DNA of 64,000 nucleotides, from assembly GCA_019686135.1 (NCBI GenBank), contig JADGHL010000011.1, forward strand, positions 1 through 64,000, given 5' to 3'. The notes below the pieces were generated by a model, which saw only the letters and a list, made by a program, of their open reading frames with translations, had not been told where the DNA came from and did no database searches. Made by a program: the position numbers and the translations under genes. The DNA is from Myxococcaceae bacterium (GTDB lineage Bacteria > Myxococcota > Myxococcia > Myxococcales > Myxococcaceae). Positions 37,370 through 50,098 of this stretch are shown here, piece after piece (within the stretch, counting starts at the first letter, position 1; each line of letters begins with the position of its first letter).

Positions 37370-38653
37370 TCACAGCCCGAGCGGGAGCCCGGCGCTCAGA
37401 CGGAGCGTGATGTGCGAGGAGGCCAGCTCCGCGCGGGCGGTGATCTCGTTCACCTCAGCGGCGAAGAAATCGCGCTCGGTGGTGATGACGTCCAGCTGGG
37501 TGGCCGCGCCGAGCTCGTAGCGTTCCCGCGAGAGCTGGGCGGCCCGCCGGGCAGCCTCCACCTGGGCTCTGGCCGCGCTCACCTTCTGGATGGCCGCGGT
37601 CAGCCGCTGATAGTCGTTGTGGACCTGGTCGCGCACCTGCAGCTTCGCCCTCTCTATCGTTAGTTGGGCGATCGAGCTCTGGGTCGCGGCGGCGTCGGCG
37701 TTGAACCAGGTGGCGCCGTCCAGCCGCCACACCAGCCCCACCCCGGCCGTGTACTGGTGGTCCTTCCCGCTGAAGCCGCTGTAGTTGCTGGCCCGCTCGC
37801 TGAAGTTGGCGGAGATCATGGGCACCAGCGCCAGACGCGCAGCGGTCGACAGGCGCTCGGCCGCCTTCGCGTCGGCCTCTGCGGCCTTCACCGCGGGCAG
37901 GTCCAGCGCCCGCTGCTCCAGATCCTCCAGCGTGCCCTCCGGGCGGAGGTCGTCCGCCGGCAGGTCCGCCACGTCACCCGGATCCAGCCCGGTGAGCGTC
38001 AAGAGCGCACGGCGGGCGTTGGCCACCTGCATGTTGGCATCGGAGATCCGCTGGTTGGCGAGCTCGACCTCGGCGCGGGCGCGCAACACCTCGAGCTCGG
38101 TCACCACGCCCGTCTGGTGGCGCACCTCTTGGAGCTTGAGCTGCGCTTCCGCCACCGACAACGAGCGCTTCGCCGATTCGCGCACCGCGAGCGCGGCGGC
38201 GTACGCATAGTACGTGGTGGCAACCTGACGGCGGATCGCATCGCGCGTCATCTCCACCCGGTTCTCGGCCGCGTCCACCGCAGCGCTGGCCGCCGCGGCG
38301 CGGAACCAGCGGGTCGTGTCGACGAGCGGCAACTCCACCCGCACCAGCCCGTCCAGCTGATCGTACGGGGTGATGACGATCTCCTGTCCCCCGGTGAGCG
38401 GGCTCGCCGGGATCTTCGCCTCGTACTCATTACGGGTGTAGCCCGCCTGCGCGGTGATCGACGGCGCCAACGACAGGGAGGCGGCGGTGAGCTCCTGCGC
38501 CGCCTTCACCCGCATTTCGCGGGAGATCTCCTGATCGACGTTGCGCTGATCCGCCGCGTCCATCAGCTCCTTCAGGGTGGCCGCGCGCGCAGCGCCTCCA
38601 CCCCAGAGCGCCACCGACGCCACCGCCACCGTCACTGCTTCCAGGACCTTCAT
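37370..38653 (-). CDS. TolC-family outer-membrane efflux channel
   Basis: This 427-residue protein has a cleavable signal peptide (hydrophobic to about residue 24, ending AARA-AT). Two duplicated outer-membrane-factor halves have long helices of the form VAEAQLKLQEVRHQTG and AQLSRERYELGAATQLDV. It should form the trimeric exit duct for the adjacent RND pump. The ATG at 38653 overlaps the pump gene stop (ATGA), so it is the last gene of the tetR-adaptor-pump-channel operon. Confidence 0.92.
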   Translation of the reverse strand: MKVLEAVTVAVASVALWGGGAARAATLKELMDAADQRNVDQEISREMRVKAAQELTAASLSLAPSITAQAGYTRNEYEAKIPASPLTGGQEIVITPYDQLDGLVRVELPLVDTTRWFRAAAASAAVDAAENRVEMTRDAIRRQVATTYYAYAAALAVRESAKRSLSVAEAQLKLQEVRHQTGVVTELEVLRARAEVELANQRISDANMQVANARRALLTLTGLDPGDVADLPADDLRPEGTLEDLEQRALDLPAVKAAEADAKAAERLSTAARLALVPMISANFSERASNYSGFSGKDHQYTAGVGLVWRLDGATWFNADAAATQSSIAQLTIERAKLQVRDQVHNDYQRLTAAIQKVSAARAQVEAARRAAQLSRERYELGAATQLDVITTERDFFAAEVNEITARAELASSHITLRLSAGLPLGL

Positions 38654-41600
38654 TCCGCTGCCTCACTGCCCCGCGCGATCGCCGGGGTGGGAAGAACATG
38701 ATCGAGCGCGGGCACCGGCTCCGGCTGCTCCTCATCCTTCGGGAAGAGCCGGCGCCAGATTCGCCAGAACACGCGCGAGATGTCGTCGAAGTACGAATAG
38801 GCCACCGGCACCGCCAGCAAAGTCAGAAGGAGCGAGAACAACTGCCCGCCCACGACCACGCCCGCGGTGGCCTTGTTGAACCCGGAGCCCACGCCCTTCG
38901 CGGTCACCAGGGGGACCATGCCTGCCACGAACGCGAACGTGGTCATCAGGATGGGCCGCAGCCGGTCCCGGTTGGCGTGGAGGATGGCGCGCGTGCGCAC
39001 CGCCTTCTCCAGGCACTCCCGCACCCGGTCCGCCCGGCCCTCGTCCCGCTTCCGCCGGAACGCATGCTCGAGCCCCTTCCTGTCCAGCAGCCCCTCCAGC
39101 GCCACCTCCAGCTGCGGGATCAGCGTCGCGAACGGAGCGGACAGATCGATCCCGTGCAGCGCGGCTCTGAGCATGGGGTCGTACTTCTCCCTCAGCCCGT
39201 TGGTGTGATCGATCTGGAGGATGGCGTTCTTCTTGATGACGCCGAAGAGGACGAAGATCCCGAGGAAGCTGTACAGGTCCAGCGCCTGGTCGAAGACGAT
39301 GATCGACAGGATCGCGAACGGGAGCGTCAGCGGCAGCGAGATCAGGATCGTCACCGGGTGGAGCCAGCTCTCGAACTGCGCGGCGAGGATGAGGTACATG
39401 AACACCATCGACGCCAACAGGCCGAGGATGAAGGACAGCCCGGTCTCCTTCATCAGCTTGGTGGTGCCCTGCGGCTTGATGGAGAAGCCCTCGGGCAAAT
39501 GCTCGTCCTCGATCGCTTTGGTCAACGCCTCGGCGATGGCCCCCTCGTTGGCGCCGGGCTTCCCGTTGGCCATGAAGGTCACCTGGCGCTCGCGCATGTA
39601 GCGGTTGATGGTGGTGGGACTGGAGGTGTGGACCACCTTCACCACGTCCGCCAGCGAGACCAACCCGACCTTGCGCGACGGCACGGTCAGCAGCTGCAGC
39701 ATGTCCTCGTTGGTGCGGTACTCCTCGGTGGCGCGGATGCGGATGTCGTACTGCTCCCCGCCCTCCGAGTAGTTGGACACCTTCTGGCCGGCGACCAGGA
39801 ACTGCAGCGCCTGGGCGATATCCATCACCTGCACGCCGAGATCCGCGGCCCGGTCACGGTCGATCACCACGGACAGCTCCGGCTTACCGGTGACGAGGCT
39901 CGAGTCCACGTCCACGACGTCGGGGATCTTCCGGATGCGTTCGAGGATGTGCTCGTTGGCTTCGGTGAGACGCTCGAGGTCCGGACCGGCGAGCAACATC
40001 TGGATCCGCTGCGTGGCCTGACCGCCGCCGAACTCGCTCACGTCCGCCACGTTCACGCGCCAGTCCTTCGGCAGCGTGGGGATGATCTGCTGGCGGATGA
40101 CGTCCTTGAACTCGTTCTGGGAGATCTTCCGCTGATCCGGCGGGACCATCTTCACGTAGATCCGCGCCTGGTTGGGGGTCTTGGCGGGATCGTCCCCGAC
40201 CGTGAGCAGCGTGCCGATGACCTCGGGGTAGGCGCGGATCGTCCGGGCCACCCGCTGACCCACCAGCTCGGTGGCGGCCACGCTGCGGCCCTCCGGCAGG
40301 CGGATGATGACCTCGAACTGCGCGCGGTCGTCGATGGGGAGGAAGCCCTTGCGCGCCTTCGCCGCCAGCGGACCCATGGAGACCAGCGCCAGCACCGAGA
40401 GCACCACCACCGCCCACCGGTGCCGCATGGCCAGGCCCAGCAGCTTCACGTAGCCACGCTCCACCGGGCGGTAGCCCAGATCGACGATCCGCTCGAGGAT
40501 GCTCTTGCGGTGGTCGCCGGCCTTCTTCTTCTTGAGCCAGTGGGCCGCCAGCATCGGCGTCAGCGTGAAGCTGACCCACAGCGACACCGCGATGGACATG
40601 CTCATCGTGATGCCGAAGCTGGCGAGGAAGCGCCCGGGGATGCCCGCGACGAAGGCGATGGGGAGGAACACCGCGATCAGCGAGAGCGTGGTGGCCATGA
40701 CCGCGGTGCCGATCTCCCGGGTCCCCGCGATCGCCGCCTCCTTCGGATCCAACCCCTTCTCGTCGATGTGCTTGAAGATGTTCTCCAGCACGACGATGGC
40801 ATCGTCAATCACGATGCCCACGGCCAGAGCCAGCGCCAGCAGCGTGATGCTGTTGAGCGTGTAGCCGGCCAGCTTCATCGCCGCGAAGGTGCCGACGATG
40901 GAGGTGGGAATGGCCAGCGCGGCGATCACCGTGGACCGCACGTTCCCGAGGAACAAGAGCACGATGATCGCGGCGAAGAGCGCACCCAGCACCAGGTGTT
41001 CGGTCACCGCGTGGGTGCCCGTGCGGATCACCTCCGACCCGTCGCGCTGCACCACCAGCGAATAGCCCGGCGGGAGCTCCTTCTGGACCTCCGCCATGCG
41101 CTCCTTGACCGCGTCCACCACCGCCACGGTGTTGGTGCCGGACTGCTTGCGGATCGCCAACAGCACGGTGCGGTCGTCATTCCACATCGCGGAGGTGTCG
41201 AAGTCTTCGACCCCGTCCTCCACCGTGGCGATCTCCGAGAGGCGGATCGCGCGGCCGTTCTGCTCGCGGACGATGATGTCCTTGAGCGCGTCCACCGACT
41301 CCACCCGCCCCTGCACCTCGAGCGAGAGGTACTCTCGGCTGGTGTCCACGCGGCCGCCCGGCAGGGTGATGTTCTGGGCGTTGATCGCCGCGGCCACCTC
41401 GCCGGCGGACATGTTCAGCGAGCGGAGCTTGACCGGATCCACCAGGACGTTGATCTGCCGCCTGCGCCCGCCGATCAGCGTGACCTGCCCCACCCCGCTC
41501 ACCGACTCGAGCCGGCGGCGCACCACGCGGTCGGCGAGGTCGGTGATCTCCCGGATGTCCACCTGCTTGCGGACGCCGTCCACCTCGCCGTCACTGCCGG

Positions 41601-42045
41601 CCGCCTTCGCGTTCAGCGCGACGTAGAGGATGGGCGCCGCGTCCGGGTCGAACTTCTGGACCATGGGCGGGTCGATGCCCTTGGGAAGCTGCGGGAGGAC
41701 CGAGTTGACCTTCTGCTGGACCTCCTGGGTCGCAACGTCGGGATCCTTCTCCAGCTGGAACATAATCACGACCTGCGACACGCCCTCCGAGGAGTTCGAT
41801 CGCAGCTCGTCGATCCCGCTGATGGTGTTGACCGCGCCTTCGATCTTGTCGGTGATCTCCCGCTCGATGTCCTCCGGCGAGGAGCCCGGCTGCGTGGTCA
41901 TCACCACCACCGCGGGCAGGTCGACCTTGGGGAACTGGTCGACCCCGAGCTGGGTGTAGAAGACGCCGCCCACCACGAGGATCACGAGCGAGAGCACCGT
42001 CGCGAAGACGGGCCGGCGCACACACAATTCGGCTAGCCACTGCAT
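38650..42045 (-). CDS. RND-family efflux pump inner-membrane transporter (HAE1-like)
   Basis: This 1131-residue proton-driven pump has twelve membrane helices in two halves. The proton-relay Asp pair is in VGIVIDDAIVVLENI, and the matching Lys of TM10 is in FGVIKKNAILQIDHTN. The start (VRRPVFATVLSLVI, then GVDQFPKVDLPAVVV) is typical of hydrophobe/amphiphile exporters. An extra segment of roughly 60 residues lies between TM10 and TM11 (residues about 955-1020, nucleotides 38986-39183), where relatives have a short loop of about 15 residues. Substrate cannot be read. The adaptor gene lies 36 bases upstream. Confidence 0.93.
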   Translation of the reverse strand: MQWLAELCVRRPVFATVLSLVILVVGGVFYTQLGVDQFPKVDLPAVVVMTTQPGSSPEDIEREITDKIEGAVNTISGIDELRSNSSEGVSQVVIMFQLEKDPDVATQEVQQKVNSVLPQLPKGIDPPMVQKFDPDAAPILYVALNAKAAGSDGEVDGVRKQVDIREITDLADRVVRRRLESVSGVGQVTLIGGRRRQINVLVDPVKLRSLNMSAGEVAAAINAQNITLPGGRVDTSREYLSLEVQGRVESVDALKDIIVREQNGRAIRLSEIATVEDGVEDFDTSAMWNDDRTVLLAIRKQSGTNTVAVVDAVKERMAEVQKELPPGYSLVVQRDGSEVIRTGTHAVTEHLVLGALFAAIIVLLFLGNVRSTVIAALAIPTSIVGTFAAMKLAGYTLNSITLLALALAVGIVIDDAIVVLENIFKHIDEKGLDPKEAAIAGTREIGTAVMATTLSLIAVFLPIAFVAGIPGRFLASFGITMSMSIAVSLWVSFTLTPMLAAHWLKKKKAGDHRKSILERIVDLGYRPVERGYVKLLGLAMRHRWAVVVLSVLALVSMGPLAAKARKGFLPIDDRAQFEVIIRLPEGRSVAATELVGQRVARTIRAYPEVIGTLLTVGDDPAKTPNQARIYVKMVPPDQRKISQNEFKDVIRQQIIPTLPKDWRVNVADVSEFGGGQATQRIQMLLAGPDLERLTEANEHILERIRKIPDVVDVDSSLVTGKPELSVVIDRDRAADLGVQVMDIAQALQFLVAGQKVSNYSEGGEQYDIRIRATEEYRTNEDMLQLLTVPSRKVGLVSLADVVKVVHTSSPTTINRYMRERQVTFMANGKPGANEGAIAEALTKAIEDEHLPEGFSIKPQGTTKLMKETGLSFILGLLASMVFMYLILAAQFESWLHPVTILISLPLTLPFAILSIIVFDQALDLYSFLGIFVLFGVIKKNAILQIDHTNGLREKYDPMLRAALHGIDLSAPFATLIPQLEVALEGLLDRKGLEHAFRRKRDEGRADRVRECLEKAVRTRAILHANRDRLRPILMTTFAFVAGMVPLVTAKGVGSGFNKATAGVVVGGQLFSLLLTLLAVPVAYSYFDDISRVFWRIWRRLFPKDEEQPEPVPALDHVLPTPAIARGSEAAE

Positions 42046-42081: not shown

Positions 42082-43158
42082 TCACTGCAGGCGCGCGCCG
42101 TCGCGCAGGCCCGGGGGCGGGGCGACCACCACCTGGTCCCCGTTCTGCAAAGTCTCGAGCACGGCGATCCGTCCGTCCTTCTTCACTCCGGTGCGCACCA
42201 CCATCTCCTGCGCGGTGCCGTTCTTCGCCAGGAACAGGCGCCGCACCGTCCCGTCGACCTGGATCGCCTCGACCGGTACCGTGGGGACTTCCTCCTCGCC
42301 GGTGAGCAGAAGCACCGTGGCGAACATCCCCGGCCGCAGGGCGCCGTCTGGGTTCGCCGCGGTGGCCTCCACGATCAGATCGCGCGTGTTGGGCCGGAGC
42401 GCGGGGCTGACGTACTTGACCACCGCGGGGAACTTCCGGTCCGGGTAGGCGGAGACCTCCACCTCCAGCGTCTGGCCGTCGTGGACCTGCCCCACCACCG
42501 GTTCGGGGACGCTGATGCTCACCCGCACCGGGTCGATGGCGTAGACGCTCGCTACCCGGGAGTTGGGCATCACGTACTCACCGACGTTGACGTAGCGCTC
42601 GCCGATGATGCCGTCGATGGGCGCGCGGATGATGGTGTCGCCCGCCAGCTTCCCGGCGAGGTCCGCCTGGGCGCGCGCGGCGTTCGCCTGGTACAGCTGC
42701 GCGGTGCAAGCGGTCTTCTGGCGTTCGTACTCGGCTTTGGTGATCGCGCCGTTGGCGAAGAGCTGATCGGCGCGGGCGCAGTCCTGACGCGCCTGCTCCA
42801 CCTGGGTGTTGGCGGCCCGCGCGGACGCGTCCGCCGCCTGCGCCTGGAAGGAGGCGGCCTTGGAGTCGACGCGGGCGATCACCTGGCCCACCTTCACCGG
42901 CTGGCCGCGCTCCACGTAGGTGGCGGTCACGCGGCCGGACACGTTCGCGGCGACCTCGGATTGGCGGTCGGCGAGAACGCTGCCGGTGAGGGTGAGGTAA
43001 CGGGGCATCTTCTGGATCTGCACCTCGGCGGTCTCCACCTTCACCGGACGCGTGGCTTCCGGGGCGGTGGGGGCGGGCGCGGCCTGCGCGGTGGCGGCAC
43101 CGCCGCGGCTACAGGCACACAGCAGTGCAAATGCGACCAACGGGATGATGCGATTCAT
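42082..43158 (-). CDS. RND periplasmic adaptor (membrane fusion protein)
   Basis: This 358-residue adaptor bridges pump and channel. The N-terminal signal ends ALLCACSR, compatible with a lipid-modified Cys. The order is then beta-barrel strand, lipoyl half (SGRVTATYVERGQPVKVGQVIARVDS), an alpha-helical hairpin with LFANGAITKAEYERQKTA, the second lipoyl half (IIRAPIDGIIGERYVNVGEYV) and barrel (VRVSISVPE...). ATG 43158 follows AGAGG. The tetR stop is only 7 bases upstream. Confidence 0.93.
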   Translation of the reverse strand: MNRIIPLVAFALLCACSRGGAATAQAAPAPTAPEATRPVKVETAEVQIQKMPRYLTLTGSVLADRQSEVAANVSGRVTATYVERGQPVKVGQVIARVDSKAASFQAQAADASARAANTQVEQARQDCARADQLFANGAITKAEYERQKTACTAQLYQANAARAQADLAGKLAGDTIIRAPIDGIIGERYVNVGEYVMPNSRVASVYAIDPVRVSISVPEPVVGQVHDGQTLEVEVSAYPDRKFPAVVKYVSPALRPNTRDLIVEATAANPDGALRPGMFATVLLLTGEEEVPTVPVEAIQVDGTVRRLFLAKNGTAQEMVVRTGVKKDGRIAVLETLQNGDQVVVAPPPGLRDGARLQ

Positions 43159-43165
43159 GGGGCCT

Positions 43166-43792
43166 CTAGACGGCGGGAGCGGCTCTCTCCGGACGACCTC
43201 GCCGGCGCCGGGGCGTCCGGGTGGACAGAGCACGGGTGAACAGCTGCGCGAGCTGGCTGGCATAGGCCTGCTGCTCGCTGGGTGGAAACGGAACCTTGTT
43301 GAAGTACGAATAGAACGACCGTCCCTGGACCGTCCCCAGGATGGAGAAGGCTGCGGTCTCGATCTCGGGGGCAAAGATGAGGCCCTTTCGGCGGGCGCGG
43401 CGGAGCCAGCCCTGCATCGCCTCCACCGCCTTTCCGGGAGCCGGTTTGGTGGTGTACAGGCGCGGAGAGATCCCGCTCTCCCGGAGCGCGATCATGCAGG
43501 GGATGTACTCGGCGAAGAAGTCGAGCATCGCCGTGAACAGCTCCAGAAGCTGCGCGTGCAGCGGGCGGTCGTCGGGACCGCGTTCCAGCAATTCCAGCCA
43601 GGGCGGATACGGCGGCTTGAGCGCCGCCAGCATGAGCGCCTGACGCGTGGAGAACCGCTTGAGCAGCGCGGGCACGGTGACGCCCAGTTCGGCGGCAACG
43701 CCGTTGAGCGACACGTTCGGACCCTCTGCGCGCACCTTGCGCCGCATGGTGGAGAGGATCTGCTCGTCGCTGATCTGACGGGGGCGTCCCAT
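43166..43792 (-). CDS. TetR-type repressor of the RND efflux operon
   Basis: This 208-residue protein has an N-terminal helix-turn-helix (GPNVSLNGVAAELGVTVPALLKRFSTRQALM) and a helical ligand domain, then an Arg-rich tail. It is the first gene of the efflux operon, and a perfect 12-bp inverted repeat overlaps its promoter. I infer that it represses itself together with the three pump genes and releases on ligand binding. The ATG at 43792 lies only about 10 bases after the predicted transcript start, so the message may be nearly leaderless. Confidence 0.9.
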   Translation of the reverse strand: MGRPRQISDEQILSTMRRKVRAEGPNVSLNGVAAELGVTVPALLKRFSTRQALMLAALKPPYPPWLELLERGPDDRPLHAQLLELFTAMLDFFAEYIPCMIALRESGISPRLYTTKPAPGKAVEAMQGWLRRARRKGLIFAPEIETAAFSILGTVQGRSFYSYFNKVPFPPSEQQAYASQLAQLFTRALSTRTPRRRRGRPERAAPAV

Positions 43793-43796
43793 GGAG

Positions 43797-43828
43797 GCGT
43801 TGGTTAGTAACGGACAACTAACCAACGC
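43797..43828. promoter_or_regulatory. TetR-type operator: perfect 12-bp inverted repeat
   Basis: Arms GCGTTGGTTAGT (43797-43808) and ACTAACCAACGC (43817-43828) are perfectly complementary around an 8-base spacer. It begins 5 bases upstream of the tetR ATG and overlaps both promoter boxes. The TTAGT core is notably AT-rich for this genome. Confidence 0.8.
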
Positions 43829-43832
43829 GCAA
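43804..43832 (-). promoter_or_regulatory. Promoter of the tetR-efflux operon
   Basis: On the minus strand TTGCGC (43827-43832) and TACTAA (43804-43809) are separated by exactly 17 bases. The -10 lies inside the left operator arm and the -35 touches the right one, so a bound repressor would exclude RNA polymerase. Confidence 0.65.
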
Positions 43833-48865: not shown

Positions 48866-50098
48866 TCACACCACCGCGCCCGGCCCACCGCCGGCCGTGG
48901 CCTCCGTTTCCCGGGCCGCCGGGCGGCTGCCTCCGGGCAGCGCCGTGAGGTTCGGCTCCGCGCGACGCACCGTCCCCCACGCCTCGCACGACGGACAGCG
49001 GAAGGCGTGCTCGGGGAGTTTCTGCCGGCACGCGGTGCAGGCGAACGCCATCGCCGGAGTGCCGAGCGGATCGAGGATCCCCGGCCACTGCCCTGCTCCG
49101 CCCTCCTCGCCTCGGGGGCCGGCGCTGGACAGAAGCCTCAGCTCGCGGCGCGCCTCGTCGAACCAGGGCCGCCGCTCGAGGATCCGCTCGAGCTGCGCGC
49201 GCGCAGCCTCGATGTCGCCGCGCTCCTTGAGCGCGAGCGCCAGCGCGAACCCATAGGGGCCGGAAGGATCGCCCCGGGCGGCGATCTGCGCGCGCAGTAC
49301 GCGCTCCACGTCGTCCGCAGAAGAGGCGGCGCGCATCAGCGCCACCGCGCGGGGAGCCAGCTCGGGCTCGAGCGTCACCGCGCGCTCCAGCCGCAGGGCC
49401 GCCTCCGCCCGGCGGCCCTGCGCGAGGAGGATCTGCGCCAGCGCCGCCTGCGCGTCGGCGTTCTGTGGCGAAAGCTCCACCGCGCGCGCGGCCACCTCCA
49501 GCGCCTCGTCCGGCGCCTTCTGGGCGATGGCGCGCGCGTGCGCCGCGAGCAGATGCGCGACCACGCCCGTTCCCGCTCCACCCTCCAGCCGCACCAGCCG
49601 CGCCTGGATCTCCGCCGCGCGCGACCACTCCTGCGCATCCTCGAGCAGCTGCCGGTAGCGCACCAGCGCCTCGCGGTGCGTGGGCTCCTCGGCGAGGATT
49701 TTCTCGAAGGCCTCCTCCGCCTTGTCCCGAAGGCCGCTGCGCCGGTGGTCGAGCGCCAGCGCCAGTAGGGCCCGGCGCTTCACCTCCGGCCCGAGCCCCG
49801 GCCGAAGCAGGATGTTCTGGTGCAGCCGGATCGCCCGCTCCAGATCGCCCTTGCGCCGGAACAGCGCCCCCAGCGCGAAGTACGTCTCGAGCGTCTCGGT
49901 GGACAGCTGCGCCGCGCGCGAGAGCTCGGCGATCGCCGCGTCCGGATCGTCGGAGAGGACGTAGGTGACGCCGGCGAGGTAGGCGCGGGCGCGGTCCTCG
50001 GTACGGCCCTTGCGCGAGAGCACGAGGATGAGCGCCGTGACCGCCGCCAGAGCGGCGATCCCGAAGAGCGCGAGCAGCGCGGACGCCGAACCGAGCAC
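48866..50098 (-). CDS. lapB: LapB/YciM-like TPR protein with C-terminal rubredoxin-type metal site
   Basis: This protein of about 410 residues has one N-terminal membrane helix and then at least six tetratricopeptide-like repeats (for example LGALFRRKGDLERAIRLHQ). The C-terminal CTACRQKLPEHAFRCPSCEAWG has the CxxC...CxxC of the LapB rubredoxin domain. In E. coli LapB controls lipopolysaccharide synthesis through LpxC turnover. The gene follows ihfB by 11 bases, the same neighbourhood as E. coli ihfB-lapA-lapB; no separate lapA is present. GTG 50098 is the likely start, with poor ribosome site. Confidence 0.85.
   Translation of the reverse strand: MLGSASALLALFGIAALAAVTALILVLSRKGRTEDRARAYLAGVTYVLSDDPDAAIAELSRAAQLSTETLETYFALGALFRRKGDLERAIRLHQNILLRPGLGPEVKRRALLALALDHRRSGLRDKAEEAFEKILAEEPTHREALVRYRQLLEDAQEWSRAAEIQARLVRLEGGAGTGVVAHLLAAHARAIAQKAPDEALEVAARAVELSPQNADAQAALAQILLAQGRRAEAALRLERAVTLEPELAPRAVALMRAASSADDVERVLRAQIAARGDPSGPYGFALALALKERGDIEAARAQLERILERRPWFDEARRELRLLSSAGPRGEEGGAGQWPGILDPLGTPAMAFACTACRQKLPEHAFRCPSCEAWGTVRRAEPNLTALPGGSRPAARETEATAGGGPGAVV

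Follow-up and report, generated by a model that had tools for sequence, protein, structure and literature searches.

The stretch of DNA analyzed here (hereafter the window, 64,000 nucleotides in length) contains a tripartite RND efflux set of adaptor, permease and TolC-type channel arranged as one gene run on the minus strand behind a gene for a TetR-type repressor. The repressor gene (tetR; 43166-43792, minus strand, 208 aa) was assigned from its TetR_N match and its relatives. It is followed by an RND adaptor (membrane fusion) gene (42082-43158, minus strand; TIGR01730 (RND_mfp), 250.1 bits against a cut-off of 94.9), an RND permease gene of 1131 aa (38650-42045, minus strand; ACR_tran, 873.1 bits, cut-off 28) and a TolC-like outer-membrane channel gene (37370-38653, minus strand; OEP, 162.6 bits, cut-off 22). 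With NCBIfam models, the permease and the channel both fall below the curated cut-offs. The adaptor gene starts 7 nt past the tetR stop and the channel ATG overlaps the permease stop by 4 nt (ATGA), and from this spacing all four genes are presumably co-transcribed. In 7/7 relatives fetched, the permease is likewise followed by the channel and preceded by the adaptor. The permease of the window also carries an insertion of ~60 residues (about 955-1018) between KNAILQIDHTN and RLRPILMTT; insertions of other lengths occur in three of the same seven relatives (L099, L100 and L103), and the other four have none.

Immediately ahead of tetR, which reads leftwards from its ATG at 43792, lies a perfect inverted repeat (43797-43828, assigned to neither strand) separated from the start codon by 4 bp. 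On the plus strand, the left arm GCGTTGGTTAGT (43797-43808) is followed by the spacer AACGGACA and then by the right arm ACTAACCAACGC (43817-43828), an exact reverse complement of the left one; the bases just outside the arms are unpaired on both sides. The 12-bp arms and 8-base spacer described in the initial annotation are thus present, as is the proposed start of the feature, but the palindrome stops at 43828 rather than 43832, the last four bases being the rest of a putative -35 hexamer. Counting arms from 12 bp upwards and spacers up to 20 nt, the window (69% GC) has two perfect repeats, the second one at 49392-49422 with a 7-nt spacer. A 12-bp palindrome somewhere within 64 kb is unremarkable, since 40 dinucleotide shuffles of the window also yield such repeats (mean 0.35, maximum 4). 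Within the 229-bp stretch between tetR and the divergent SDR gene, a comparable repeat arose in 10/20,000 shuffles. The initial annotation had suggested looking for the same word elsewhere in the genome, and at a tolerance of 3 mismatches the 32-bp pattern indeed has a single place in the 5.5-Mb assembly (97% complete). The central portion of the repeat, GTTAGT-N8-ACTAAC (43803-43822, no strand), hereafter the core, has six places in the same genome at up to 2 mismatches, one perfect and five with 2 mismatches; the five were set aside because the reversed control is more frequent (37 places).

Predicted promoter and leader of the tetR message

A putative -35 hexamer (TTGCGC, 43827-43832, minus strand) and a putative -10 hexamer (TACTAA, 43804-43809, minus strand) lie 17 nt apart, with a predicted transcription start region at 43796-43798 on the same strand, 6-8 nt past the -10. 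Each hexamer matches only three of the six consensus bases, and a generic sigma-70 scan at a strict threshold found no promoter at this site. The promoter prediction is based on the conservation of TTG-N17-TACTAA in relatives. When 19 relatives were aligned on the core, conservation peaked in the TTG (T in 17, T in 16 and G in 16 of 19) and the following C/G, in GTTAGT and in TTACTAAC; the flanking GTT and AAC are weaker, and the inner spacer is mostly free. Counting the window, 17 of 20 loci have the TTG 17 nt from TACTAA; in L004 the distance is 18 nt, and the TTG is absent in L012 and in L007, which lacks a usual promoter (TACGCA at 19 nt, with GACTAA as the -10). In this alignment, what the relatives mainly conserve is a promoter plus operator, in the form of TTG-N17-TACTAA with the -10 in the right half-site. 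The putative -10 is therefore part of the right half-site, and the -35 abuts the left arm. The earlier proposal that the repeat covers both hexamers holds for the -10, which lies wholly within the right half-site, but not for the -35, which shares only two bases with the palindrome.

The distance from the end of the -10 to the start codon (ATG at these loci, GTG in L062) is 8-12 nt in 14 of the 20 loci, L007 and L012 among them, and 38-88 nt in the remaining six. By eye, no Shine-Dalgarno stretch is found between the -10 and the start codon in the 14 short-spaced loci. Since the start codon follows the -10 so closely in these 14, the tetR message is probably nearly leaderless. For the window, the same spacing places the predicted start site ~4-6 nt ahead of the ATG, which agrees with the nearly leaderless message that had been suggested initially, but not with the accompanying estimate of about 10 bases between transcript start and start codon. 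In genus g5, L006 and L037 have a second core with one mismatch (GTTAGG for GTTAGT) in a longer gap ahead of tetR, and L007, also of this genus, has the GTTAGG core only.

The core and the TetR group

A homologue of the TetR protein is present in 25/60 relatives and 59/96 genomes of the family. Upstream regions were compared for 38 homologues, a count that leaves out seven weak ones (L022-L026, L030 and L031, with no such repeat in L022 and L023) and three distant loci from a contig scan. Of the family homologues lacking a locus, only G092 (L096) and the second copy in G065 (L062) were read. The core with at most one mismatch was found within 250 bp upstream of 30 of the 38, and was absent at this threshold from the other eight (L017, L018, L020, L021, L027, L028, L029 and L047), all of which are 34.4% identical or less. 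A gene-blind search of the 96 family genomes for the exact core returned 26 sites in 25 genomes and 10 genera, of which 16 lie ahead of tetR and 10 ahead of an adaptor-permease pair of the same type (reversed control, 17 places). At the tetR-linked sites the adaptor gene comes next in 15, and in L060 the contig ends first. None of 49 further genomes of the order contained the exact core. Outside this order, G157, which belongs to another family of the same phylum, encodes a TetR protein (46%), adaptor (65%) and permease (69% over 1-954) of this type and has TTGACA as the -35 and TACTAA as the -10, spaced by 17 nt, together with the exact core upstream of the ATG. For contrast, the adaptor regions of eight genomes with a related adaptor (38-57%) and either another tetR or none nearby showed no core within one mismatch, with one of them (L082) having a single 2-mismatch place. 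These counts are not independent, since aligned rows and genomes within a genus share ancestry.

The TetR protein of the window scores just below the 24-bit cut-off of Pfam TetR_N (22.3 bits, E 1.1e-4), matches nothing else in that Pfam comparison and has no match among NCBIfam models, and its single-sequence structure model is all-helical and poor (pLDDT 46). In the alignment of 33 members (A1), the TetR_N helix-turn-helix was detected at E <= 0.001 in 27, and the A1 profile matched 51 distinct PDB sequences (best E 3.4e-10), most of which carry the names of TetR-family proteins or of established TetR-type regulators, among them AefR, MphR(A) and RamR. In the putative recognition helix, the stretch PAL[LIF]KRF occurs in 27 of the 33 rows, and all 27 have the core within one mismatch upstream. 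Among the other six, L019 (AALFKRV) also has such a core and five (TTLFNRF or AALLHRV) lack it. A profile search outside the order (E <= 1e-30) returned six genomes, among which the exact core is found only in G157 (L087, PALLKRF); L088 (PALFKRF) and L092 (PALVKRC) have a core with one mismatch, L090 and L091 have 2-mismatch places, and L089 (PVLFKRF) has no core. Other palindromes were also encountered, including TTTCTTTCCNGAAAGAAA upstream of the ATG in a related tetR group (TTLFNRF; L017, L047 and L096) and, upstream of tetR in L092, which is a homologue from another family, ATAGTAAGTTAGTACTTACTAACTTACTAT with perfect 14-bp arms and a 2-nt center.

Sites apart from the operon

In genera g8 and g12 (10 genomes), tetR (34-37% identical) is located apart from the pump. 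The exact core lies 51-63 bp upstream of the adaptor ATG in these genomes, and a one-mismatch variant, GTTAGT-N8-GCTAAC, which was picked after seeing the g8 and g12 upstream sequences, lies upstream of the separate tetR in 10/10. With 21 candidates scored per genome, only the operator-linked adaptor reached E <= 1e-40 in each of the 10. The pump of these genera has diverged further (37-39% for the adaptor, and 52% for the permease in the two compared over their full length) and may therefore be a paralogue. The presence of sites at both the separate tetR and the pump is, within this comparative evidence, the strongest indication that regulator and site belong together.

The variant GTTAGT-N8-GCTAAC has three further places in the g8 and g12 genomes (control, 0), all in g8 (three of six genomes; L093:1824, L094:1877 and L095:1888) and each just ahead of a gene. 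In the two genomes tested, the product of this gene scores 42.7 and 47.1 bits against Pfam PAP2_3 (cut-off 27), and alignment of the two upstream regions with two separate tetR promoters revealed likeness across the -35 region, the operator and the first codons. For example, the gene in G063 begins MGRPQQVLDEE, compared with MGRPRQVLDED for tetR in that genome. The likeness of the first codons to tetR is clear in L095 and weaker in G007. Apparently, a copy of the tetR promoter with its first codons has been captured by a PAP2-superfamily gene.

Many sites also carry outer half-sites at a 4-bp offset from the core. GTT is found at offset -4 in 9 of 19 tetR-linked sites (window included), 4/6 pump-only sites and 6/6 separate-tetR sites (for each of the latter two types, six sites out of 10 were taken), and AAC is found at +21 in 12 of the 19 tetR-linked sites and 0/12 of the others. 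Other offsets gave few exact matches: GTT at -11 in six linked sites, which is the -35, and AAC at +24 in one linked site and at +25 in two separate-tetR sites. The consensus of the tetR-linked sites is accordingly the 28-bp GTTnGTTAGT-N8-ACTAACnAAC, which in the window corresponds to GTTGGTTAGT-N8-ACTAACCAAC (43799-43826, no strand) with a predicted second dimer site. Binding of two repressor dimers to overlapping sites offset by 4 bp is suggested by this pattern with roughly even chances.

A predicted autoregulatory switch and its alternatives

Taken together, the placement of the core argues that the palindrome very probably serves as operator for the TetR-type protein whose gene starts 4 bp further downstream. 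One might alternatively suppose that transcription starts further upstream and that the palindrome acts as an RNA element, its transcript folding into a hairpin in which the tetR start codon is masked. The single strand of the window does fold well (-19.5 kcal/mol, z -6.48; z -3.44 to -4.20 in three relatives), and its pairing register surpasses all six slid versions (75.9% of cells paired vs at most 48.7%), as is expected of any palindrome. However, across 19 sites (window included) five of the six inner pairs are invariant and each outer pair is lost in 4 to 16 of the 19, and covariation does not exceed that of shuffles, 179/500 of which reach the score and 277/500 the paired cells. It is sequence, rather than pairing, that is conserved. 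Furthermore, the start codon lies anywhere from 8 to 88 nt past the -10, which argues against a start-codon hairpin, and the conservation of TTG-N17-TACTAA places the predicted transcript start downstream of most of the hairpin stem, such that an RNA element is very improbable.

Equally slim are the chances that the site serves a different regulator acting on the operon or belongs to the divergent SDR gene. The site does sit in a divergent intergenic region, and its binding by the TetR protein is a prediction. Nevertheless, wherever the exact core turned up in the searched genomes, it accompanied either this TetR or an RND pump of the kind described here, its close variant recurs at the separate tetR, most homologues with another recognition helix have different upstream sequences, and the contrast adaptor regions lacked the core within one mismatch. 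As for the SDR gene, among 43 loci (L035-L077), many with flanks of at most 1.5 kb, it was found beside the site in the window's own locus only. A functionless chance palindrome is the most remote of these explanations: a 12-bp repeat is not rare in a GC-rich window of this size, but conservation of the core across 10 family genera, and in one genome of another family, argues against chance.

For the operator reading, the circuit that we infer, with its binding, repression, co-transcription, start site and inducer, would operate as follows. Without inducer, the repressor would bind GTTAGT-N8-ACTAAC, and with the -10 hexamer inside the bound right half-site, RNA polymerase would be kept off the promoter. 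The tetR-adaptor-permease-channel operon would consequently be shut off, tetR included. Release of the repressor would come when a small molecule, which is probably one of the substrates of the pump, binds the C-terminal domain, making the net circuit a negative feedback loop. The initial annotation had envisaged an operator on the operon promoter and simple self-repression of the whole operon. The conserved placement of the core before tetR and the pump genes is consistent with both the operator and self-repression, whereas "simple" may be inaccurate, given the 4-bp offset of the outer half-sites and the split of tetR and pump, each with a copy of the site, in two genera. A more elaborate reading, which we offer tentatively, is that the 28-bp element is part promoter and part double operator, with the -10 as a half-site, two dimers on palindromes that are shifted by 4 bp and a leaderless mRNA, and that this element is portable: it occurs both at tetR and at the pump in genomes that separate the two, and capture of the tetR promoter and first codons would have brought the PAP2-superfamily gene into the regulon. 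Under a double operator, the repressor would cover the -10 along with what becomes the 5' end, because the -10 is itself a half-site and the mRNA leaderless.

In kind, an autoregulated TetR-RND operon is a known mechanism and an ordinary type of switch. AcrR, MexL and NalD are TetR-family local repressors of RND pumps, and the present system resembles theirs in its TetR-type protein, RND operon and palindromic site on the promoter. It differs in that tetR is the first gene of the pump operon and its message is probably nearly leaderless. MexL and NalD are named in PMC6018408, as is the QacR operator, a 28-bp inverted repeat for two dimers with a 6-bp center. Compared with that description, the element studied here is similar in being an inverted repeat of ~28 bp with a longer center and potential room for two dimers, but its center is 8 bp rather than 6 and the pump is of the RND rather than the MFS type. 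AefR-like TetR proteins (TetR_C_7) offer a further parallel, as this C-terminal model is matched at E <= 0.001 by 22 of the 33 A1 members, although the window protein is not among them. In the open-access literature searched, with few subscription journals covered, GTTAGT-N8-ACTAAC had no match as an operator, and the matches examined were primers. The new details are the operator motif, as far as the open-access literature shows, the split regulon and the copied promoter ahead of a PAP2-superfamily gene.

An operator is now predicted for a TetR group whose member in the window has no NCBIfam match, and with the operator of this group so defined, its regulon should be readable from genomes. 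The tetR start provides a simple test case for leaderless translation in this group. Moreover, the split arrangement of two genera and the copied promoter would constitute natural experiments on how a local repressor gains targets.
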